A stretch of DNA of 35,792 nt from Methanobacteriota archaeon (GTDB lineage Archaea; Thermoplasmatota; Poseidoniia; Poseidoniales; Thalassarchaeaceae): positions 1-35,792 of the forward strand of contig JAAZXI010000010.1 in assembly GCA_014240285.1 (NCBI GenBank), read 5' to 3'. Shown in pieces: positions 7,695 to 19,617 of this stretch. The position numbers and the translations under genes were made by a program. The first letter of the stretch is position 1. Each line of letters starts with the position of its first letter. Under the pieces are notes generated by a model. That model did not search any database. It was not told where the DNA came from and worked only from the letters and a program-made list of their open reading frames with translations.

Positions 7695-7743
7695 TGCAAT
7701 GACCCGTCGGTCCCTATAGGGGACCGTCGGGTGTTGCAATGAC
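7695..7743 (+). promoter_or_regulatory. nuoA leader: imperfect 13-bp hairpin (7702-7714/7720-7732) flanked by direct repeats TGCAATGAC (7695-7703, 7735-7743), with a 6-codon uORF (7699-7719)
   Basis: ACCCGTCGGTCCC-TATAG-GGGACCGTCGGGT has one T-T mismatch; ATG ACC CGT CGG TCC CTA TAG starts in repeat 1 and stops in the loop; repeat 2 contains the nuoA ATG. Confidence 0.6.
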
Positions 7744-8185
7744 TTCAGTTCCCGAAGCTTATCTCGCTGTTGCTGTGATGGCATTGGTGGGGATTGGATT
7801 CCCGGTGGGTAGCTTCATCGCGGCAGCAGTTCTGAGGCCAAGGAAATCACCCAATGACCCAACCAAGATGCGCTCGTGGCTGCTTCCGGGGTATGAGACG
7901 GACCAGAGTCTGTACCTCCGCAGGGACAGCACCTACGAGTGTGGCGCAGAGCCTGTGGGAGACGCCCACATCAACTTCCACTTCCAGTATTACTGGTACG
8001 CCATCATCTTCCTTGTCTTCGACATCGCCTTCATGTTCCTCGCCTTTGGCGGGGTCATCGCCATACAGGACGGCATGCTCGATGAAGAAGTCATTGGCGC
8101 TCTAGCCACCTTGACCGCGTTCATCGTGCTGATGGGACTGGGGGTATGGCATGTTTTCCGCAAGCGAGGAAGGATTTACATTTGA
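7739..8185 (+). CDS. nuoA: NADH-quinone oxidoreductase-type complex I subunit A
   Basis: YECGAEPVGDAHINFHFQYYWYAIIFLVFDIAFMFL matches the NuoA signature (YECG..P.G.A......FY..A..F..FD.E); first gene of an A-N operon. Confidence 0.95.
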   Translation: MTSVPEAYLAVAVMALVGIGFPVGSFIAAAVLRPRKSPNDPTKMRSWLLPGYETDQSLYLRRDSTYECGAEPVGDAHINFHFQYYWYAIIFLVFDIAFMFLAFGGVIAIQDGMLDEEVIGALATLTAFIVLMGLGVWHVFRKRGRIYI

Positions 8186-8194
8186 GGTGAGCGA

Positions 8195-8791
8195 ATGAAG
8201 GATGAGGGTCAGAACTACTCGCTCTTTAACAGTAGGATGCTGGTTGATGTAGTGGGCGACGTGACCGATGAGGCGCTGAAGGCCAGTCGGATGAAGGACA
8301 TCATCGGGGTGCTCGCTGGCAGGATGTTCAATTGGGGCCAGCGCAAATCCTTGTTTCCACTCCACCTCGGCATCAAGTGCTGTGCTTTGGAGATGGCTGC
8401 GGCAGGAGCCAGCCGATTCGACGCTGAGCGATTCGGGGTTTTCTTCAGATCCAGTCCTCGGCAGTGCGACGTCCTTCTTGTCAACGGCCCAATCAGCAAG
8501 AAGTTCGCCGACCCCATTGTTAGGCTGTGGGAGCAGATGCCCGAGCCAAAGTGGTGCATAGCCATGGGTGAGTGCGCCATCTCCGGTGGCCCCTACTTTC
8601 AGTCATACAATATCCTCGAAGGCGTCGATACCGTGATTCCGGTTGACGTCTACATACCAGGATGCCCCCCAAGACCGGAGGCCCTGATAGATGGATTCGA
8701 TAAGTTGCGACAGAAAATCATCAGAATCGGTGCGGCCCCCAGCGACGCCAGACCGGTTACTGCAGCCCCGCTGATTCCCGGAGACGAGTAG
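8195..8791 (+). CDS. nuoB: Complex I subunit B (N2 cluster protein)
   Basis: GIKCCALEM, SPRQCDVLLVNG, MGECAISGGPYFQSYN, VYIPGCPPRPEAL: all four N2 ligand cysteines present. Confidence 0.97.
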   Translation: MKDEGQNYSLFNSRMLVDVVGDVTDEALKASRMKDIIGVLAGRMFNWGQRKSLFPLHLGIKCCALEMAAAGASRFDAERFGVFFRSSPRQCDVLLVNGPISKKFADPIVRLWEQMPEPKWCIAMGECAISGGPYFQSYNILEGVDTVIPVDVYIPGCPPRPEALIDGFDKLRQKIIRIGAAPSDARPVTAAPLIPGDE

Positions 8792-8802
8792 GAGATTCCA
8801 GC

Positions 8803-9462
8803 ATGGGTAATACTGTCTCACCTGATTTCCAGAAGGCAGCGGCTGAGACACTGGCCGTGGCAACTTCCGCAATCGAGGGAGTGGATGCCGAGGTAATCGA
8901 GCGCTCTAGCGGCACTAGTCCACGACACGTAGTGCTCATCAACGCCTCGCCCGGGAGTTGGAGGGCCCTAGCCGAGAATCTCTACTCCGAGCACGCTGTC
9001 GATTACTGCTCCATGGTCACCGGTATCCACTGGCCCGAGGGCGATGAGGAGCGCAAGTGGGAGGTGGTCTACCATCTCTTGAGGACGGGAGTCAGAGACC
9101 CTCCCATCGAAAACGGCCTAGTCAGACCGATGATCGTGAATCCTTCGAAACTCAAGGGGGCCAGCATGCCTCTCGAGATCGAGATCCATGTCCACATCCC
9201 GGACACGACCACCCCATCGGTGGATTCTGTACAGGACATTTGGGTAGGGGCGGATTGGAACGAGAAGGAGACATGGGACCTCGTTGGCATTGACTTCGAC
9301 GGCCATCAGGAGATGAGAAGGGTGCTGCAACCGCATGAGACCCCGAAGGGATACCACCCTCTACAGAAACAGCACCATCTCCGCTACCATGGCTTCGAGG
9401 AGATGTATGATGATGCTCAGGGATTCATGCGCAAGCCGGCCGACGTTGGCAAGATCAAGTGA
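8803..9462 (+). CDS. nuoC: Complex I 30 kDa subunit (NuoC)
   Basis: YCSMVTGIHWPE...WEVVYHLL...PSVDSVQDIWVGADWNEKETWDLVGIDFDGHQEMRRVLQPHETPKGYHPLQK is the NuoC signature region. Confidence 0.93.
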   Translation: MGNTVSPDFQKAAAETLAVATSAIEGVDAEVIERSSGTSPRHVVLINASPGSWRALAENLYSEHAVDYCSMVTGIHWPEGDEERKWEVVYHLLRTGVRDPPIENGLVRPMIVNPSKLKGASMPLEIEIHVHIPDTTTPSVDSVQDIWVGADWNEKETWDLVGIDFDGHQEMRRVLQPHETPKGYHPLQKQHHLRYHGFEEMYDDAQGFMRKPADVGKIK

Positions 9463-9471
9463 GGTGAGAAA

Positions 9472-10608
9472 ATGGCGGAGATGTGGATTTCAATGGGCCC
9501 CCAACATCCTATGACCCATGGACTGTGGACTCTCAAGATTAAGGTCGACGGCGAGACTGTTGTAGACACCGAACCCGATCTCGGCTACATCCACAGAGGC
9601 GTGGAGAAAATCTGCGAGGCGCGCGATTTCACCCAGATTACGACTTACTGCGACCGACTCTGCTACGCTAGCGCCAACACGTGGTCGCACGCCTACATCT
9701 ACGCCGCTGAAGACCTCCTCGGGGTCGAAGTACCTGAGCGAGCCGAGTACATCCGCTTGGTGGCAGTGGAACTGCAGCGCATCGCGAGTCACCTGATGTG
9801 GCTGGGGGCTTACGGGCCAGACATCGGTAATCTCTCGGTGATGGTATGGTGTCTGCGCGAGCGTGAGATGATGATGGATCTCCTACAGGAGCTGGGTGGT
9901 TCTCGGATGCATTACAACTTCCCTCGCATCGGCGGCGTAAAGCGCGACCTTCCTCACGGTTTCGCCCAGCGAGCCCGTGCCAAACTCAAGTTGTTCCTCA
10001 ATAGAATCCAAGAGTACGAGGCGCTGTTCGATGAGAGCACTGTATTCCTAGTTCGCAGTCAGGGAGTCGGTTACGCCAAGCCCGAGGAGATGATTAATCA
10101 CGGAGTCTCAGGTCCAAATCTCCGTGCTGGCGGAGTGAACTACGACATCCGCTGGGCTCACCCCTACTCGGTGTACAGTGAACTCGACTGGGCACCACCC
10201 GTCGAACGCTCATCAATCAAGGGAGCTGATTGCTATGACCGCTACAGGGTCAGGGTCGAGGAGATGCGCGTTAGCGCGTCTTTGGTGCTCCAAGCTCTCG
10301 ACAAGATGCCCGGCGGCGCTGACACCTACCATAATCCCGGAGACCCGATGATTATCGCCAAGGCACCCACTCGAGCCCCGGAGGGCACTACAGGGGCACA
10401 TCACTTCGAGGACAGTAGGGGTGAGTCGATGTTCTACATCGCCGGTGGAGGCGAGAGTCGAGGCAAGCAACCGTACAGAGTGTCGATACGTTCTCCCATG
10501 TTCATCACGATTCCATACGCGGCTAAGTGCATGATTGGCTACAAGGTCGCCGACATACCTGCCATCATGGGCTCCTTTGATCCATGCATAGGCGAGACTG
10601 ACAGGTGA
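9472..10608 (+). CDS. nuoD: Complex I 49 kDa subunit (NuoD)
   Basis: MGPQHPMTHGLWTLKIKVDGE, EPDLGYIHRGVEKICE, CDRLCYASA, ELQRIASHLMWLG, SFDPCIGETDR. Confidence 0.97.
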   Translation: MAEMWISMGPQHPMTHGLWTLKIKVDGETVVDTEPDLGYIHRGVEKICEARDFTQITTYCDRLCYASANTWSHAYIYAAEDLLGVEVPERAEYIRLVAVELQRIASHLMWLGAYGPDIGNLSVMVWCLREREMMMDLLQELGGSRMHYNFPRIGGVKRDLPHGFAQRARAKLKLFLNRIQEYEALFDESTVFLVRSQGVGYAKPEEMINHGVSGPNLRAGGVNYDIRWAHPYSVYSELDWAPPVERSSIKGADCYDRYRVRVEEMRVSASLVLQALDKMPGGADTYHNPGDPMIIAKAPTRAPEGTTGAHHFEDSRGESMFYIAGGGESRGKQPYRVSIRSPMFITIPYAAKCMIGYKVADIPAIMGSFDPCIGETDR

Positions 10609-10612
10609 TTTG

Positions 10613-12190
10613 ATGGCGAGCAGTGATTGGTTGGATATAGTTGGATGGTCAGACTCCTTCTGTAGTTGGTCGATGGACAACGTGCACGACATCCTGCCCT
10701 CTAGCGATATAGACATGCAAGTGACGATTCCGAGTACATGGGCTTGGCAGAATCCGATTACCATGGGTCCTATTTTCAACATGCAGAGCGGATTTGCTAG
10801 TATTCAACCAGCTCTTGAGTCCTTCATGCATGCCACCATCATGTGCACTGTTGTTTTTGGCATGATGATGACCACCATGCTGGCGATTCCGTACATCGAG
10901 AGAAAGTTCATCGGACGATTGATGGATAGGCTCGGTGCTACCACCACTCTCAGGAGCCTGTGGGTAGGCGAGAGTGGTGTCACTGCTGGCGAGTGGTGGA
11001 ATCAGTTGCCGTTCGGAATGGGAGCCCCCATCGGCTGGGTGGTGAACGCGCTCAATTCCACATGGGGGAACTCGCACGAGCTCGAGACGGTCGCGAGAGT
11101 GAACAACCGCAGTTACCATGGATATTGGTTCCTGCTTCCCGGTTTCTTCCAAGCCTTCGCCGATTTCATGAAGTTCGCGACTAAGGAGCACATCGTGCCG
11201 AAGAACGCTGACAAGGTGGTCTTTGAGGTCGCCCCGGTAATCATCATAGCGACCACTGTCATGGTGTTCGCATTCGTCCCGTTCGGACCGCATATTTACG
11301 CCGCCAACCCGGAACTCTCTCTACTCTTCATGATGGCGATATTCGGGATAGCTCCTCTAGGCGTATTCTTCGCCGGTTGGGCGTCAAACAACAAGTACAC
11401 GCTGATTGGGGGGATGCGCTCGGCAGCCCAACTCACCGCTTACGAGATACCTCTCTTGATTACGGTTCTCGGAGTCGCGGTGCTGAGTGGCTCGTTCAAC
11501 ATCATTGAAATCGTCGACTTCCAGATGGGACAGGACCAAGGTAATGTCTGGAACATCTTCCTGATGCCGCTTGGTGCCCTATTATTCCTAGTCACGATGA
11601 TTGCCGAGGTGGAGCGCATCCCGTTCGACATGCCCGAGGCCGAGGCCGAACTCGTAGAGGGCTGGTGGACCGAGTACGGAGGCATACGTTGGGGATTGAT
11701 GTTCGCAGCCGAGTACATGCGCTCGTACGCGGCATGCATCCTATTCGCTCTGTTCTTCCTAGGGGGTTGGGAGGCACCGTTCCAGCACACCCTCTCAGAC
11801 CTGCCTCTGGTAGGGGGTTTGATCTCTTTCGCGTTCTCACTCATTCCAGGCGTCGCATGGATTTTGCTCAAGGCATGGGGATTATTCGCTGTATTCGTTT
11901 GGATTCGCGCCTCCCTTCACAGAGTGAGAACTGATCAAATTCTTGAGTTCGGATGGCGCTACCTGCTACCTCTCTCGATGCTAAATCTCGTCATAGCCAT
12001 CGTCCTGCGTCTACAGTTCTGGACTGGTGAGCCATGGGCGCTTTGGGTCCCAGCAGCGATCACTCTGGTCTCTGGCGGGCTGTTCGTAGTACTGGCAATC
12101 GATGAGGACAAGGAAGCGCTGGAGGTCCAGCGCAGGCCATACAGCACTCAGGCTGTGGTCAAGGCGTCTCCAGGGAGTCACAGGGAGTAA
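10613..12190 (+). CDS. nuoH: Complex I subunit H with ~70-aa N-terminal extension and ~57-aa insert after the first amphipathic segment
   Basis: IPYIERKFIGRLMDRLG, LLPGFFQAFADFMKFATKEHIVPKNADKVVFEVAPV, AAQLTAYEIPLLITVLGV, EVERIPFDMPEAEAELVEGWWTEYGGIRWGLMFAAEYM. ATG at 10613 preferred over TTG at 10610; SD-like AGGTGAT upstream. Confidence 0.93.
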   Translation: MASSDWLDIVGWSDSFCSWSMDNVHDILPSSDIDMQVTIPSTWAWQNPITMGPIFNMQSGFASIQPALESFMHATIMCTVVFGMMMTTMLAIPYIERKFIGRLMDRLGATTTLRSLWVGESGVTAGEWWNQLPFGMGAPIGWVVNALNSTWGNSHELETVARVNNRSYHGYWFLLPGFFQAFADFMKFATKEHIVPKNADKVVFEVAPVIIIATTVMVFAFVPFGPHIYAANPELSLLFMMAIFGIAPLGVFFAGWASNNKYTLIGGMRSAAQLTAYEIPLLITVLGVAVLSGSFNIIEIVDFQMGQDQGNVWNIFLMPLGALLFLVTMIAEVERIPFDMPEAEAELVEGWWTEYGGIRWGLMFAAEYMRSYAACILFALFFLGGWEAPFQHTLSDLPLVGGLISFAFSLIPGVAWILLKAWGLFAVFVWIRASLHRVRTDQILEFGWRYLLPLSMLNLVIAIVLRLQFWTGEPWALWVPAAITLVSGGLFVVLAIDEDKEALEVQRRPYSTQAVVKASPGSHRE

Positions 12191-12202
12191 GGAGGTGAGG
12201 AG

Positions 12203-13171
12203 ATGAGTTACAAAGCAAACACCGGGCACCCCCATGCCACTCCCAATTTCAGGAACCTAATCATCCGCCCGATGTGGATGACCCTCAAGACTGCTCTCAG
12301 GACCGTACCATTCCTCGGTAGGCTGGCCATCCTCAGGAATGATTACCACGGCAAGTCCGCTGCCATGATAGATTCAACCACGCGAAAAAGGGTAGGCTTC
12401 GATCATCCGACCCTGTGGCAGAAGTTCTCTGCTGACCGCGAGTCCAGTGAGATCATGCCTTTCTTAGAGCGACCTGTGACTGTGATGTACCCGTACGAGC
12501 GCTTGGAAGACTTAGAACCGTGGCTGTTCGTCCCAGGCAACTACAACGGCCGCATAGGCATTATCTGGGAGACCTGCACTGCGTGCAAGGCGTGTGTCAG
12601 AGTCTGTCCCAATGACTGCTTGCACATGACCTCGGAAGTGAGAGTCAACGTCCTTGAGTTGGCTGAAGAGGGAGATGACTGGCACGGTTACGGAGAAGAA
12701 TTGGAGGAAGGGGGATATGCCGCGAGAGAGAAGGATGACTATGATGGGATTGCCTCGGGATTCGACCTCGTCAATTCCCATGCCGACGCCCCCGCGCAGT
12801 ATGACTTCGCCGAAGTCATCGAACTGACCGGCGACAAAGCGACGGTACGATGGTCAGACGGCTCGGGCATCGAGACCATAGATTCCAGCACTCTAAAGCC
12901 AGCCGAGCAGGACATTGTCTCGGGGCAAATTGACATCGGCAGATGCATGTTCTGCGGGTTGTGCGCCGAAGCATGTCCGTTCGAGTCTTTCTTCATGACC
13001 AACGAGTACGATGGTATGGCAGAGTTCTCGAGAGAGGAACTCTGGATGGATGCCAGCAGGACCCGTGTTCTCCCCGCAGTTCACCAGGAAAGAGTAGACA
13101 TGGAACTCGCCAAGCGCGCCGAGAAGGAACAGAAGAAACGTGACAGGAAGGCTGCAAGAGCGGAGGCCTAA
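12203..13171 (+). CDS. nuoI: Complex I subunit I (8Fe-ferredoxin type) with large insertion between the two 4Fe-4S motifs
   Basis: CTACKACVRVCPNDC and CMFCGLCAEACPFES; by position in the operon and motif identity NuoI, but inter-motif spacing is ~113 residues. Confidence 0.94.
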   Translation: MSYKANTGHPHATPNFRNLIIRPMWMTLKTALRTVPFLGRLAILRNDYHGKSAAMIDSTTRKRVGFDHPTLWQKFSADRESSEIMPFLERPVTVMYPYERLEDLEPWLFVPGNYNGRIGIIWETCTACKACVRVCPNDCLHMTSEVRVNVLELAEEGDDWHGYGEELEEGGYAAREKDDYDGIASGFDLVNSHADAPAQYDFAEVIELTGDKATVRWSDGSGIETIDSSTLKPAEQDIVSGQIDIGRCMFCGLCAEACPFESFFMTNEYDGMAEFSREELWMDASRTRVLPAVHQERVDMELAKRAEKEQKKRDRKAARAEA

Positions 13172-13173
13172 TC

Positions 13174-13437
13174 ATGGCATTCGACTTTGAAGCACTGGTG
13201 TTCGTCATATTGGCCGCGATTGCCATAGGAGGCGCCCTTGGATGCGTCTACTCCAGACGCGTCGCACACTCACTACTCTCGCTGATGATGACTTTCTTCG
13301 CCGTGGCCGGAGTCTTCGTGATGGCCAGTGCGGAGATGCTGGCAGCGATCCAGATTCTCGTCTACCTCGGATCGGTAATGCTCGTGGTCCAGTTCGGAGT
13401 CATGCTGACGCGTAAGCAGATACAGGAGGATGCCTGA
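13174..13437 (+). CDS. nuoJ1: Complex I subunit J, N-terminal half
   Basis: VFVILAAIAIGGALGCVYSRRVAHSLLSLMMTFFAVAGVFVMASAEMLAAIQILVYLGSVMLVVQFGVML matches NuoJ TM1-3; stop then immediate ATG of second half. Confidence 0.9.
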   Translation: MAFDFEALVFVILAAIAIGGALGCVYSRRVAHSLLSLMMTFFAVAGVFVMASAEMLAAIQILVYLGSVMLVVQFGVMLTRKQIQEDA

Positions 13438-13701
13438 ATGAGAGGTCTCTCCGCCCTCGCTCAGATTGGCTTACTCGTCTTCATGCTCGTGCTTCTTTCC
13501 GAGGTCATGTCTCACTCGATGTGGGGTGGATCGGGGAACGCCCCTTCTACCCTAGACTTCGCAGTGGCGTTGTTCGGCGAGTGGTGGCTGGCCACCGTGG
13601 TTCTAGGAGCTCTTCTCGCGATGGCGATGATCGGCGCGTCCTACTTGGTTCGCGACGAGCGCCTCGCCAATCTGATATGGGATATGGAGGGTGACCAATG
13701 A
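13438..13701 (+). CDS. nuoJ2: Complex I subunit J, C-terminal half
   Basis: Position between nuoJ1 and nuoK, two TM helices, 87 aa; split NuoJ arrangement. Confidence 0.75.
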   Translation: MRGLSALAQIGLLVFMLVLLSEVMSHSMWGGSGNAPSTLDFAVALFGEWWLATVVLGALLAMAMIGASYLVRDERLANLIWDMEGDQ

Positions 13702-14000
13702 TCGAGGCCAGTTGGATAGCTGGACTGGGAGTCATCCTGTTCAGCATCGGCCTGCTCGGCGCGTTCACCCGCAAGAACGCCATAGTGGTGCTCATGTGTA
13801 TCGAAGTGATGCTGAACGCGGCCAACCTGAACTTCGTGGCCGGAGCCAGCCACTACAGCGATGTCGACGGATGGGTGTTCACCGCCATCGCCATCGCCAT
13901 CGCCGCAGCAGAGGTCGCGATTGGTCTGGCCATCCTGCTTTCCCTTTACAGCACCCAGGAGACAATCTCCCTGGAAGATGCAAACATCCTGAAGAACTGA
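13698..14000 (+). CDS. nuoK: Complex I subunit K
   Basis: GVILFSIGLLGAFTRKNAIVVLMCIEVMLNAANLNFV...AIAIAAAEVAIGLAILLSLY is the NuoK signature with both membrane glutamates. Confidence 0.96.
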   Translation: MIEASWIAGLGVILFSIGLLGAFTRKNAIVVLMCIEVMLNAANLNFVAGASHYSDVDGWVFTAIAIAIAAAEVAIGLAILLSLYSTQETISLEDANILKN

Positions 14001-14009
14001 GGTGAGAGA

Positions 14010-16325
14010 GTGAGCGATACGAAGAACGAGTGGGAACTCTTGGTTCCGATTATACCATTTCTATTAGTCGCTCCATCGCTCAAATTCTTGGCCGGTTGGG
14101 AGTCCGTCGAAGCCGCCTTTCTCATCGTGGTCGTGCCTCTGCTTATCTTCCCTGCTATACTGGTCCTAGGGCAGTTGTACAACGGTAACGAGACTTGGAA
14201 AAACCGTTACAAAGAGGGCGGAATATTCGCCCTCGGATCGCTCGCCCTCTCGCTCAGCATCGCCATCTGGATACTCTACGACTACATCGTAGGTTCCGCC
14301 CACTTCGAAGCACATTCAGTAGTCGACCCATTCTCGTGGCTGACTTTCGATGTCATCGAGCAGACCGGCGCGCAATGGGAGGTCAGCACGGGCTTCACCG
14401 ACATCGGAGTCGGAGTCTGGATAGATTCAGTCACCCTGATGCTACTGTTCGTAGCCACCTTCCTGTGCTTCCTGATATGTTGGTTCAGTCTCGGCTACAT
14501 GAACACGGACAAGATCAACGAAGACAGCAACCATCGCTTCTACGGGGAGTTCGTACTGTTCGCCATCGGCATGTTCGGCATGGTGCTGGCTGACAACTTC
14601 CTGTGGCTATTCATTTTCTGGGAGATAATGGGGCTTTGCTCCTACCTTCTTATCGGCTTCTACTACTGGAAGGATAGCGCAGCCTACGCCGCCAAGAAGG
14701 CATTCTTGACCACTCGCGTGGGTGATGTGTTCCTGATGGTCGGCCTGCTGATACTCTACGACATCTACGGCTCTCTGGACTTCGCGGTAATCTTCGATGA
14801 CCCTTCAACCGGGGTTGGAGGTATGATGGTAGAATCTAGTGAGTTGTTCTGGGCTCTGTTGATGTTGTTCATCGGGGCAGTGGGCAAGTCGGCCCAGTTC
14901 CCACTCCATGTCTGGCTACCTGACGCCATGGAGGGCCCGACTCCTGTGTCCGCACTCATACACGCCGCGACCATGGTGAACGCCGGGCTTTACCTCGTTG
15001 TACGGATGGTGCCTTTCGTCGATATCCATGTCAACGGCGTCGCTGGCCTCGAGAATTTTGCCCTGATAGTCGCCTGGATTGGCGGCATCACGGCATTCAT
15101 GGCAGCAGCCATCGCATTCGTCCAGAATGACATCAAGAAGGTTCTAGCATACTCCACGATGAGCCAATTGGCCTACATCTTCACCGGTTTGGGCGCCGGT
15201 CTGTTGTTCCTCAACATCGGCGAGCATCACGCGGGTTACTTTGTCATAGGGGCCTCGATGTTCCACTTGTTCAACCACGCCATGGCCAAAGGCATGCTGT
15301 TCATGGCGAGCGGCTCAGTCATCCACGAGGTACACCACGCACACGACCACGTGCGCGAACTCAGCGACAAGTACAGCACCAACGAGGGCGACGATCACGG
15401 TGACTTCGACCCTCAGGACATGCGTATCATGGGCGGCCTAGCAGCTAGGATGCCAGTCACTGCGACGGCTATGATGCTCGGCTCGATGTCCATCATCGGT
15501 ATCCCACTCATTGGTGGCTTCTGGTCCAAGGAAGGCATCATCGCTGAGACTTGGGCCGCCTGTCTGCACGAGGAACCTTTGATGTTCGTCCCGGCCCTGT
15601 TGGTGCTGGCAACTGCCGGAATGACCGGTTTCTACATGACTCGGATGTGGTTGATGACTTTCGCCGGCCCGCCAAAGAGCGAGATCGTCGGACATGTCCA
15701 CGAGGCGACACCGTGGATCAAGGAGCCACTAATCATCCTCTCCGTCATCACCGCCCTCGGTGGCTTCGCCCTGGCTCTGTTCGGTGCGGTGGAATATCTC
15801 GGTGATCCTGAGTATGACCACCTCTCATTCCATGGCATCCTCTACACGCTAGAACATGCCTTCTTACCTGAAGACACAAATCTCAGGCTGGTTGGCTGGA
15901 CTACCATACTCATCGCCATGGTCATCGGTCCTGTGATGGCCTCGCGCATCCACGGTGGAAGGTTAATCGACGGCGTAGAGGCGAGTCCGCTAGTCTCATG
16001 GCTCGTCGACCTGTCAAGCAGATTTGGCTCGCAGGATGTCTCCGAACTCGCAGATTCTCAACTCGCTGAGGCACTTCAGAGGAGGCTGTACTTCGACGAC
16101 CTCTACGAGATAACTCTCGCCAAGACGGCGATTCCACTCGCAGGACTCTCGGCTTGGTTTGACAAGAACGTAATCGACGGAGTAATCAAACAGATAGAGT
16201 CCAATTCCGCATCAGGATCAGTTCAGGTCCGCAGAATCACCACGGGCAGTGCCCGTGACTACATCCTGATGGCTGCGGTCGGCATGCTCTCCATCTTCGC
16301 GTTGCTGTGGGGGGTGAGCGCTTGA
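14010..16325 (+). CDS. nuoL: Complex I subunit L
   Basis: FIFWEIMGLCSYLLIGFYYWKDSAAYAAKKAFLTTRVGDVFLMVG, GKSAQFPLHVWLPDAMEGPTPVSALIHAATMVNAG, KKVLAYSTMSQLAYIF. GTG start. Confidence 0.97.
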   Translation: MSDTKNEWELLVPIIPFLLVAPSLKFLAGWESVEAAFLIVVVPLLIFPAILVLGQLYNGNETWKNRYKEGGIFALGSLALSLSIAIWILYDYIVGSAHFEAHSVVDPFSWLTFDVIEQTGAQWEVSTGFTDIGVGVWIDSVTLMLLFVATFLCFLICWFSLGYMNTDKINEDSNHRFYGEFVLFAIGMFGMVLADNFLWLFIFWEIMGLCSYLLIGFYYWKDSAAYAAKKAFLTTRVGDVFLMVGLLILYDIYGSLDFAVIFDDPSTGVGGMMVESSELFWALLMLFIGAVGKSAQFPLHVWLPDAMEGPTPVSALIHAATMVNAGLYLVVRMVPFVDIHVNGVAGLENFALIVAWIGGITAFMAAAIAFVQNDIKKVLAYSTMSQLAYIFTGLGAGLLFLNIGEHHAGYFVIGASMFHLFNHAMAKGMLFMASGSVIHEVHHAHDHVRELSDKYSTNEGDDHGDFDPQDMRIMGGLAARMPVTATAMMLGSMSIIGIPLIGGFWSKEGIIAETWAACLHEEPLMFVPALLVLATAGMTGFYMTRMWLMTFAGPPKSEIVGHVHEATPWIKEPLIILSVITALGGFALALFGAVEYLGDPEYDHLSFHGILYTLEHAFLPEDTNLRLVGWTTILIAMVIGPVMASRIHGGRLIDGVEASPLVSWLVDLSSRFGSQDVSELADSQLAEALQRRLYFDDLYEITLAKTAIPLAGLSAWFDKNVIDGVIKQIESNSASGSVQVRRITTGSARDYILMAAVGMLSIFALLWGVSA

Positions 16326-17923
16326 TTGACGACCCCCTGTCAGTGATTACACTGGTCCCACTGGCAGTGGGACTACTCCTGATGATTCTCCCGAGAGTCC
16401 TGCCGGAGTCATCTGCAGAGGGGCTGATACGGGTTTCGAGGAACATCAGCATTGGCGTTGCCCTCGCAATAGCTGCAATCACTACCCTGCTTTTCCTCGG
16501 CCAGTGGGGCAGCATCGACTGGACCAATATCACCCAAGGTGGGTATGTTCTCCAGAACGAAGCGGTCGACCTCATTCCCGCTATTGGGGTGACCTGGAAG
16601 GTCGGAGCGGATGCCCTCTCCTTCCCGATGATTTGGCTGACTGCAATCCTCATACCAATCTCGATGCTGGTCGAATGGGACGCCAAGCGAGGGCATCTCT
16701 TCTTCCCACTGTTGCTGATTATGGAAAGCGCCCTACTGGGAGTATTCGTTGCTCTCGACCTATTCGTATTCTACGTATTCTGGGAGTTGACCCTGATCCC
16801 CATGTTCCTCCTGATACTGCTATGGGGTGGGGAGGATCGCCGCTATGCGGCGATGAAGTTCTTCATCTACACATTCACAGCCAGTGTCTTCATGCTCATC
16901 GGAATTCTCGTGATGTACTTCCATACTGACGCTATCACAGGTCTAGGGAGTCTGTCCGGCCACCACTTTGATCTCGTCGCGATGACAGCTCAGGATAACC
17001 TGATTCCGAGCGAGGGGCTGAGGCACTTCGTCTGGATTCTCTTGTTAATCGGATTCGCTACTAAGATGCCCAGCGTACCTGTGCACACTTGGTTGCCTGA
17101 TGCTCACGTCCAAGCCCCGACAGCAGGCTCAATGCTGCTGGCCGGAGTGATGTTGAAAATGGGAGCTTACGGATTCCTAAGAATCTCGATGACCGTATTC
17201 CCCGAGTCCACCATAGAGTTCGTTCCGCTACTAATCTTCCTCGGCATGGTCAGCCTAGTCTATGGAGCATGGGTGTGCATGGGACAGACCAACCTCAAGA
17301 GAATGGTTGCTTATTCCTCGGTCTCCCACATGGGCCTGATCTTCCTCGGCATTGCCACGATGCAGCCGTTGGGAATCGCAGGCGCTCTGTTCATGATGTT
17401 CGCTCATGGAATAATCAGTCCGCTGCTGTTCGCTGTGGCTGGGGCGTTCAAGCACCACTACCACACTCTGGAAATCGGCTCGATGCGCGGCATCGCACAC
17501 CACAGCCCGTGGCTGGCTGCCCACATGATGCTCGGTTGGATGGCCAGCCTAGGGCTGCCTCTCTTAGCCGGCTTCGTCGCTGAGGTTGCCATTCTGATAG
17601 CATTCTGGATGACCTACGGCTGGTTGGTGCTTCTGCCCGCGCTGACCCTCATCGTCACCGCAGCCTACTACCTAAATTCAATGCAGAGGACAATCTTTGA
17701 GTCCAACGACCCGGATCAGGGAATCCTCCCGGACACCCTGCATGGCGAGAATCCGAGTGACCTGACATGGCACGAGAACGCCGGGATGCTGACTCTCGCA
17801 GCGATGACTGCGCTGTTCGGCATCATGCCTTTCATCTTCTGGGACATGATGTCGGACTGGAGTTCAGGAATCATCATCAACACCATGATCGAAGCCATGC
17901 AAACGCAGGAGTGGAGTCCATGA
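16322..17923 (+). CDS. nuoM: Complex I subunit M
   Basis: FYVFWELTLIPMFLLILLWGG, TKMPSVPVHTWLPDAHVQAPTAGSMLLAGVMLKMGAYG, LKRMVAYSSVSHMG. TTG start at 16322 overlaps the nuoL stop (TTGA) and follows GGGGTGAG. Confidence 0.94.
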   Translation: MIDDPLSVITLVPLAVGLLLMILPRVLPESSAEGLIRVSRNISIGVALAIAAITTLLFLGQWGSIDWTNITQGGYVLQNEAVDLIPAIGVTWKVGADALSFPMIWLTAILIPISMLVEWDAKRGHLFFPLLLIMESALLGVFVALDLFVFYVFWELTLIPMFLLILLWGGEDRRYAAMKFFIYTFTASVFMLIGILVMYFHTDAITGLGSLSGHHFDLVAMTAQDNLIPSEGLRHFVWILLLIGFATKMPSVPVHTWLPDAHVQAPTAGSMLLAGVMLKMGAYGFLRISMTVFPESTIEFVPLLIFLGMVSLVYGAWVCMGQTNLKRMVAYSSVSHMGLIFLGIATMQPLGIAGALFMMFAHGIISPLLFAVAGAFKHHYHTLEIGSMRGIAHHSPWLAAHMMLGWMASLGLPLLAGFVAEVAILIAFWMTYGWLVLLPALTLIVTAAYYLNSMQRTIFESNDPDQGILPDTLHGENPSDLTWHENAGMLTLAAMTALFGIMPFIFWDMMSDWSSGIIINTMIEAMQTQEWSP

Positions 17924-19617
17924 GTTCGATAATCACCGACATGGACCTGGCCACCACCCAGCTCATCCTGCCCGAGTTACTGTTGCTCGGTGGCATCATC
18001 GCGATGATACTGGTTCCGAACCTCGGAGATGCGACGATGCGAATTCCTCTGACGAGGGTCCGAATTCCTATACTGATAGGAGGCACTAGATTCGCATCGA
18101 TAAACAATCCAAAACTCCCGAATCAGATAGCGACAACCGTCCTCGCCCTAGCATTCCTGACTTCTTTCCTCTTCCTAGGCGAACACGGTGAGGTAGGAAA
18201 CTCGCTACAGGTAGACGAGTTCAGCAGGTTGTTCACCCTATTGTTCACCGCCGCACTTTTTCTCGCCTCGGTGGCGACGACAGCTCGGTTACCCGCTAGG
18301 CCAAGGGCTTCGGTGCCGTTAGATACCGATTCCACTACTCACTCTGATGCCAAGGTCAACGCGTTGATAGACAACCGCCGCCAGGTCGATTTCCACATCC
18401 TGCTACTCACTACTGGGCTCGGAATGAGCCTGATGGCGATGGCGACCAACCTGTTCATGCTGTTCGTGTGCCTCGAACTCGCCTCGCTGTCATCCTACAT
18501 ACTCGTTGCCTTCCACAAGGAGACCGATGTTGGTGGCGAGGCCGGTATGAAGTACTTCATCGTCGGCTCGGTCGTATCAGCGGTAGGCATCTACGGGATG
18601 TCGCTGCTCTACTTGTGGAACGGCAGCCTCGACATGGCCAATCTGGCGGCTTCATGGAAGGGGATGGAGGTAATCGATCCGTTCGCTGCCATCGGCGTCG
18701 GCTTGATGCTCGTCGCCTTCGGCTTCAAGGTCGGGGCAGCCCCGTTCCATCTAGCCGTACCCGATGCCTACGCCGGAGCTTCTTCACCGATTGCAGGCGT
18801 ACTGGCTACGGCCTCGAAGGCGATGGGTTTCGTCGCCCTCATGCGCCTCCTGCTGGTTGTGACGATGCCTTCTGCTGGACAAGCCTCCTGGCTCCTTGTG
18901 TTGGCGTTAGTCGCCGTGGTTACAATGACTTGGGGCAACCTCGCAGCTCTTACCAGCGATAACCCGAAGAGGGTACTGGCATACTCTAGTGTGGCCCACG
19001 CAGGATACATGCTCGCAGCTCTCGCTGCGATTGGCTCTGGGCTGGCAGACTCTGACACGTCCGCACTCATCGCCACCGCCGTGGTGTTCCACCTCTGCGT
19101 GCTTGTGCTGTTCAAGATGGGTGCCTTCCTAGTTCTCTCAATGCTCGAGGCGGAGGGAAGAGGTCACAGAATGGAGGACCTTCATGGGCTGGCTCGTCGA
19201 GATCCTGTGATTGCCACGTCGATGTTCGTGTTCATGCTCTCCCTAGCCGGAGTCCCCCCCCTATCCGGGTTCCTCTCCAAGCTGTTGATGATTAACGGGA
19301 TAGTCAACGTATCAGCCGGCACCGGCTCTGCATCAGCGGCCACCGCCCTCTCCTGGGCTCAGGGAGTGGACCCGGTGTTCTGGCTCGCTATCGCTATCGT
19401 GCTCAACAGCGCGTTGTCACTGTTCTACTACCTCAGGATTGGTTTGGTCATGTTCTTTGAGTCGCCTGACACAGAGAACCCTCTCGTACACTCCCCTTCA
19501 CTGAAGATGGCAATCATCGCATGCGCCGTGCTGACACTGCTCTTCGGCATTGGTCCACTGAGTGACTCACTGCTCGACATGGTAGGCTCCGCAGTAGACT
19601 CCTTCATGCGCAGTTGA
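17920..19617 (+). CDS. nuoN: Complex I subunit N
   Basis: FKVGAAPFHLAVPDAYAGASSPIAGVLATASKAMGFVALMR, KRVLAYSSVAHAGYM; ATG at 17920 overlaps the nuoM stop (ATGA), so the longer ORF from 17767 is not used. Confidence 0.93.
   Translation: MSSIITDMDLATTQLILPELLLLGGIIAMILVPNLGDATMRIPLTRVRIPILIGGTRFASINNPKLPNQIATTVLALAFLTSFLFLGEHGEVGNSLQVDEFSRLFTLLFTAALFLASVATTARLPARPRASVPLDTDSTTHSDAKVNALIDNRRQVDFHILLLTTGLGMSLMAMATNLFMLFVCLELASLSSYILVAFHKETDVGGEAGMKYFIVGSVVSAVGIYGMSLLYLWNGSLDMANLAASWKGMEVIDPFAAIGVGLMLVAFGFKVGAAPFHLAVPDAYAGASSPIAGVLATASKAMGFVALMRLLLVVTMPSAGQASWLLVLALVAVVTMTWGNLAALTSDNPKRVLAYSSVAHAGYMLAALAAIGSGLADSDTSALIATAVVFHLCVLVLFKMGAFLVLSMLEAEGRGHRMEDLHGLARRDPVIATSMFVFMLSLAGVPPLSGFLSKLLMINGIVNVSAGTGSASAATALSWAQGVDPVFWLAIAIVLNSALSLFYYLRIGLVMFFESPDTENPLVHSPSLKMAIIACAVLTLLFGIGPLSDSLLDMVGSAVDSFMRS

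Follow-up and report, generated by a model that had tools for sequence, protein, structure and literature searches.

An SH3-like insert predicted in the donor-side hairpin of NuoI: a candidate docking or gating module in the 11-subunit complex I of Poseidoniales

Complex I-like enzymes of the 11-subunit type (those of Desulfitobacterium and the Fpo-like enzymes, among others) are encoded by a nuoABCDHIJKLMN operon without nuoEFG, and their electron donor is an open question, with ferredoxin as the suspect (PMC11238625). Photosynthetic NDH-1, in cyanobacteria and chloroplasts, likewise has 11 core subunits without NuoEFG, and its contact with the electron donor is the hairpin between the two 4Fe-4S motifs of NdhI, which is the ferredoxin-binding element (PMC6992706, PMC7021789). 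Small SH3-like subunits surround this hairpin, namely NdhS, as published, and NdhO, which is included here as the top natural fold match (see below). NdhO is held by NdhJ, NdhK, and NdhN (NuoC, NuoB, and NdhN), and it is reported as a likely negative regulator, whose removal increases ferredoxin-dependent activity (PMC7021789).

The window (the whole stretch of DNA analysed, 35,792 nucleotides of contig JAAZXI010000010.1, assembly GCA_014240285.1) comes from an archaeon of the order Poseidoniales, or Marine Group II. Marine Group II is among the commonest archaea of the surface ocean. The window contains the same operon as the 11-subunit enzymes above, with the following features in and around nuoI:

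7739..19617, + strand: nuo operon, nuoA-B-C-D-H-I-J-J-K-L-M-N, without nuoE, F, and G
12203..13171, + strand: nuoI, 322 residues, 4Fe-4S subunit of an 11-subunit complex I (Pfam Fer4, 6e-12; PDB relatives NdhI/NuoI)
12575..12610, + strand: 4Fe-4S motif 1, CTACKACVRVCP, residues 125-136
12620..12922, + strand: Poseidoniales-specific insert region, residues 140-240, with ~84 residues beyond E. coli
12944..12979, + strand: 4Fe-4S motif 2, CMFCGLCAEACP, residues 248-259
13085..13168, + strand: basic C-terminal helix of NuoI, residues 295-322 (AlphaFold; median charge +5)

The genes adjacent to nuoI match the Pfam families Oxidored_q4, Oxidored_q6, Complex1_30kDa, Complex1_49kDa, and NADHdh. The protein itself has the two CxxCxxCxxxCP motifs and the NuoI-type flanking sequence by which the family is recognised; its closest PDB chains are NdhI and NuoI (E 1e-12 to 1e-8), and ferredoxin-dependent NdhI chains are the top whole-protein matches. 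The preliminary description had reported a wide spacing of the motifs, with ~84 extra residues between them, and both the spacing and the coordinates were confirmed from the ORF and from PDB chain 7awt_I: C135, the last cysteine of motif 1, is 113 positions from C248, the first of motif 2, versus 29 in E. coli NuoI (C70 to C99). The gap is 30 in cyanobacterial NdhI (C73 to C103), and the inter-motif length is 41 residues in the NuoI of MGIII and 22-26 residues in that of other Thermoplasmatota.

A profile of the insert (E < 0.01) matched 46 of the 48 Poseidoniales genomes, in both families, versus none of the 146 genomes of other Thermoplasmatota, which supports the restriction to this lineage that the preliminary description had proposed to test. 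A scan of genome contigs returned close relatives only. The NuoI of the sister group MGIII, which belongs to the same class, is without it, as are the 11-subunit enzymes examined in Thermoplasmatota outside Poseidoniales. All the complete Poseidoniales NuoI examined carry the insert at a near-constant length (107-114 residues between the motifs), and an alignment of 56 sequences over 104 columns has 13 invariant columns and 15 that are nearly so; the near-invariant residues are G162, G164, G170, A174, H193, F202, G210, and W217. The median dN/dS over 149 pairs is 0.034 for the insert and 0.005 for the core; purifying selection on the insert is strong, its rate by dN/dS being about sevenfold that of the core. 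Since the same conserved insert occurs in many independently assembled genomes and has a low dN/dS, it is neither a product of chance nor an assembly error. An intein or intron was set aside on inspection, because every member carries the insert, which is ~84-100 residues long and keeps the reading frame.

The insert profile matched NuoI only, with no standalone copies of the domain across 194 genomes, and a plasmid search gave no match. A match in a viral collection (L206, IMGVR_UViG_3300027553_000062) turned out to be a fragment of a Poseidoniales nuoI, probably in a chimeric contig; there, an alanine-rich repeat links the nuoI fragment to phage-like structural genes.

Two AlphaFold models were made, one of the insert alone and the other of full-length NuoI, each with an alignment of related sequences. 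Together with the conservation, they divide the insert as follows:

12620..12646, + strand: first hairpin arm, residues 140-148, a predicted strand leading out of motif 1 (AlphaFold/DSSP)
12650..12796, + strand: residues 150-198, acidic and less well ordered, a short strand being predicted at 172-176; near-invariant G162, G164, G170, A174, and H193
12797..12922, + strand: predicted SH3-like barrel core, residues 199-240, with near-invariant F202, G210, and W217 (AlphaFold, Foldseek, conservation)
12896..12934, + strand: second hairpin arm, residues 232-244, the last predicted barrel strand, leading into motif 2 (AlphaFold/DSSP)

The barrel core is predicted by AlphaFold to consist of strands 200-209, 212-217, and 223-227, a short helical turn, and strand 232-244; its pLDDT is ~88 in both models, which also agree on the further strands at ~140-148 and 172-176. 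The acidic stretch has a pLDDT of 64-82 in the full-length model and partly below 50 in the model of the insert alone. The full-length model is itself of moderate confidence (mean pLDDT 68.9), which makes its orientation of the barrel relative to the clusters tentative. A disordered loop had been named as the alternative to a fold, and structure prediction returned a barrel in which the acidic part is less ordered. Because strands 140-148 and 232-244 join directly onto motifs 1 and 2 in the model, the barrel appears to be built on the beta-hairpin between the two motifs, the strand pairing being inferred from the DSSP string. The ferredoxin-contact lysines of NdhI also fall between its two motifs (C73 to C103), and the Poseidoniales barrel would therefore grow from the donor-contact element; by analogy with NdhI, this supports the location on the donor side that was proposed at the outset (PMC6992706, PMC7021789). 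The order of an acidic stretch followed by compact strands had also been read correctly: the net charge of the insert is -19 in this NuoI (median -18 over 123 sequences), and that of residues 143-198 is -13.

Comparison of the insert model with the PDB using Foldseek gave mostly SH3-like barrels, and the majority of the best-ranked ones have a match probability close to 1. The first rank is a designed SH3 barrel (7uwz) and the second is NdhO (6nbq_O; probability 1.00, E 0.048). Domains of the KOW, myosin SH3-like, SH3, and Tudor types come after these, and NdhS is found at rank 19. The best natural match is thus NdhO, the small subunit of NDH-1 that lies beside the ferredoxin site. The probability of 1.00 to SH3-like folds and the pLDDT of ~88 over residues 200-237 favour a small SH3/Tudor-type barrel, as had been suggested from the strand pattern, but the fold is a prediction and the best E is 0.04 (none <0.001). 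An SH3-like barrel has five short strands and a helical turn ahead of the last one, and the topology predicted for the insert resembles that of the SH3-like barrels as a class (Myosin_N, Tudor, KOW, and the designed 7uwz). Matches to de novo TIM barrels in the PDB (E 0.001) are confined to 26 acidic residues and were attributed to composition. Pfam searches found no significant sequence relationship of the insert to a Pfam family; the families that came up (Myosin_N, PCB_OB, Agenet, and others) were sub-threshold only, and the resemblance to Myosin_N is weak (E 0.02-0.08, below the cut-off).

The lack of an electron-input module, reported at first for the window, extends to the order. NuoF (PF01512) is missing from 37 of 40 Poseidoniales genomes and the FpoF type (PF04432) from all 40, the genome-wide module search having covered these two subunits; in the three other genomes, a Complex1_51K (NuoF-type) protein is encoded on a contig other than that of nuo (L174, L175, and G074:C12:8464-8940). 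Poseidoniales complex I is of the 11-subunit type without an N-module. All 40 genomes encode a POR_N-type subunit of a 2-oxoacid:ferredoxin oxidoreductase, and small ferredoxins of two types were found in the four genomes examined, which makes it probable that these archaea have an ordinary ferredoxin pool to draw on. One type is FdxA-like and strongly acidic, with a charge of -14 to -21 (L225, L229, L231, and L232); the other, of the 8Fe type, is near-neutral, with a charge of 0 to -7 and a conserved CTHCxLCIPxCPVFAL motif (L211, L216, and L218). The nuo operon has no linked donor gene.

These observations bear on how a donor might meet the insert. NDH-1 has a basic hairpin and carries its SH3-like parts as subunits of their own, whereas in Poseidoniales, the predicted barrel is fused into the NuoI hairpin and is acidic. 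The hairpin of MGIII holds a lysine/arginine cluster (AKRKSK), as does that of NdhI, but the Poseidoniales hairpin is without one. Since the insert has a charge of about -18, one ferredoxin type is at -14 to -21, and the lysine cluster of the hairpin is gone, plain electrostatic docking of an acidic ferredoxin on the insert is unlikely. Instead, the insert may act as a gate, the donor may be non-acidic, or the basic C-terminal helix may assist in docking. The preliminary description had read the insert as a possible docking platform for an unusual donor. Of this reading, the barrel, the lineage, the missing input module, and the donor side are supported; the docking role and the unusual donor are conjectural.

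The change on the donor side exceeds the insert alone, because Poseidoniales NuoI is also without the C-terminal ferredoxin domain of its relatives. A second 2[4Fe-4S] ferredoxin domain lies at the C-terminus of NuoI in MGIII and in several other Thermoplasmatota families (L151, L152, L155, L158, and L160-L162), and profile matches reach that region; in Poseidoniales, the C-terminal helix stands in its place and is rich in Lys, Arg, and Ala, and there are no cysteines past motif 2. MGIII and these other families of Thermoplasmatota have the operon type, the phylum, and related core subunits in common with Poseidoniales, but their NuoI has the tethered ferredoxin domain and not the insert, while that of Poseidoniales is the reverse. 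A six-subunit tree, which is unrooted, does not settle whether the domain was lost in Poseidoniales or gained elsewhere.

Other parts of the complex also differ from those of MGIII. The N-terminus of Poseidoniales NuoI is ~35 residues longer. NuoC (8803-9462) contains ~25 additional residues, together with a C-terminal tail, and NuoD (9472-10608) has ~14 extra residues, along with a three-residue GKQ/GKN insert before PYR. NuoH (10610-12190) contains a long Poseidoniales-specific loop insert (residues ~105-170, 'SLWVGESGVTAGEWWNQLPFGMGAPIGWVVNALNSTWGN') between TM1 and the amphipathic helix AH1, near the quinone entrance, and is also extended C-terminally.

The insert is best explained, with about even confidence, as a module that docks or gates the donor in this N-module-less, 11-subunit complex I. 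The SH3-like barrel, on the beta-hairpin between the motifs of NuoI, would form part of the docking site, where it would orient or restrict which soluble protein (ferredoxin or a ferredoxin partner) delivers electrons to N6a; these would then pass from N6a to N6b, N2, and the quinone. The docking site is the most likely place for the barrel because, in NDH-1, the soluble donor meets N6a at that hairpin. The barrel may therefore be a built-in NuoI counterpart of NdhO, NdhS, and NdhV around the NdhI hairpin.

Another mechanism, which is somewhat doubtful, would be a structural or assembly brace, in which the barrel packs on NuoC, NuoB, and/or NuoD and stabilises the hydrophilic arm with no direct part in donor binding. 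Such a brace would be in keeping with the Poseidoniales-specific extras in NuoC, NuoD, NuoH, and the NuoI N-terminus, with an acidic charge suited to packing against basic neighbours, and with the contacts by which NdhJ, NdhK, and NdhN hold NdhO in NDH-1 (PMC7021789). However, the insert arises at the donor hairpin adjoining N6a and not at a buried face, and a pure brace would not typically include a stretch that is conserved, acidic, and in part disordered.

It is unlikely that the insert is instead a negative gate, i.e., an acidic domain that shields N6a from the general, acidic ferredoxin pool or from oxygen and thus slows or regulates the entry of electrons in aerobic surface water. In favour of this, NdhO, which is the closest natural match in fold, is reported as a likely negative regulator (PMC7021789), repulsion is expected between the insert (-18) and the FdxA-like ferredoxin (-14 to -21), and Poseidoniales do not have the lysine patch of NdhI. 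Nevertheless, no regulatory partner was found, and a link to NdhO by homology is tentative (database-wide E = 1).

When the insert profile was run against all PDB sequences (hmmsearch), only two matches were obtained, of which NdhO was the better, at E = 1, and a search of 60 Poseidoniales genomes with PF11910 (NdhO) gave none over the cut-off and one match within NuoI, at E 3. Using hhalign, three NdhO sequences scored 28.0, 20.2, and 18.9 against the insert, compared with at most 15.3 for two NdhS and nine controls (PsaE, SH3, Tudor, KOW, and others, with sequences entered by hand), which places the insert closer to NdhO than to the other SH3-like domains so compared. None of 300 shuffles reached the scores of the two NdhO tested in this way; NdhS scored 14.1 and 7.6, which were matched by 13 and 257 of 300 shuffles, and its homology was rejected. 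The alignment sets the near-invariant H193 and an EV(I/V)-GD-A segment against corresponding residues of NdhO. These comparisons suggest homology to NdhO without proving it, because NdhO was the top choice out of the entire PDB and PF11910 does not match NuoI convincingly. A true kinship with NdhO, in which archaea of the surface ocean would have captured the barrel into the NuoI donor hairpin, is judged improbable.

Finally, the insert could be a neutral expansion of the loop in this lineage, its fold being incidental. This would fit a single origin in one order and the sevenfold higher dN/dS of the insert, but it is very unlikely indeed: conservation (a dN/dS of 0.034, a near-constant length order-wide, and invariant G, H, F, and W positions) largely refutes it, and AlphaFold predicts the barrel confidently.

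A search of the open-access literature yielded no publication that combines NuoI, SH3, and complex I. A metabolic survey of Marine Group II refers to 'canonical NADH dehydrogenases' (PMC6336850), a label that contrasts with the absence of the NADH-binding NuoF from 37 of the 40 genomes checked. The donor-docking or gating reading would make the barrel a fused counterpart of the separate SH3-like subunits of photosynthetic NDH-1. If it were a true NdhO relative, a protein thought to be specific to oxygenic phototrophs, these archaea would have a complex I with built-in, NDH-1-type control of ferredoxin entry. A conserved domain on the hairpin that contacts ferredoxin would offer a concrete, testable handle on the choice of donor in uncultured archaea.
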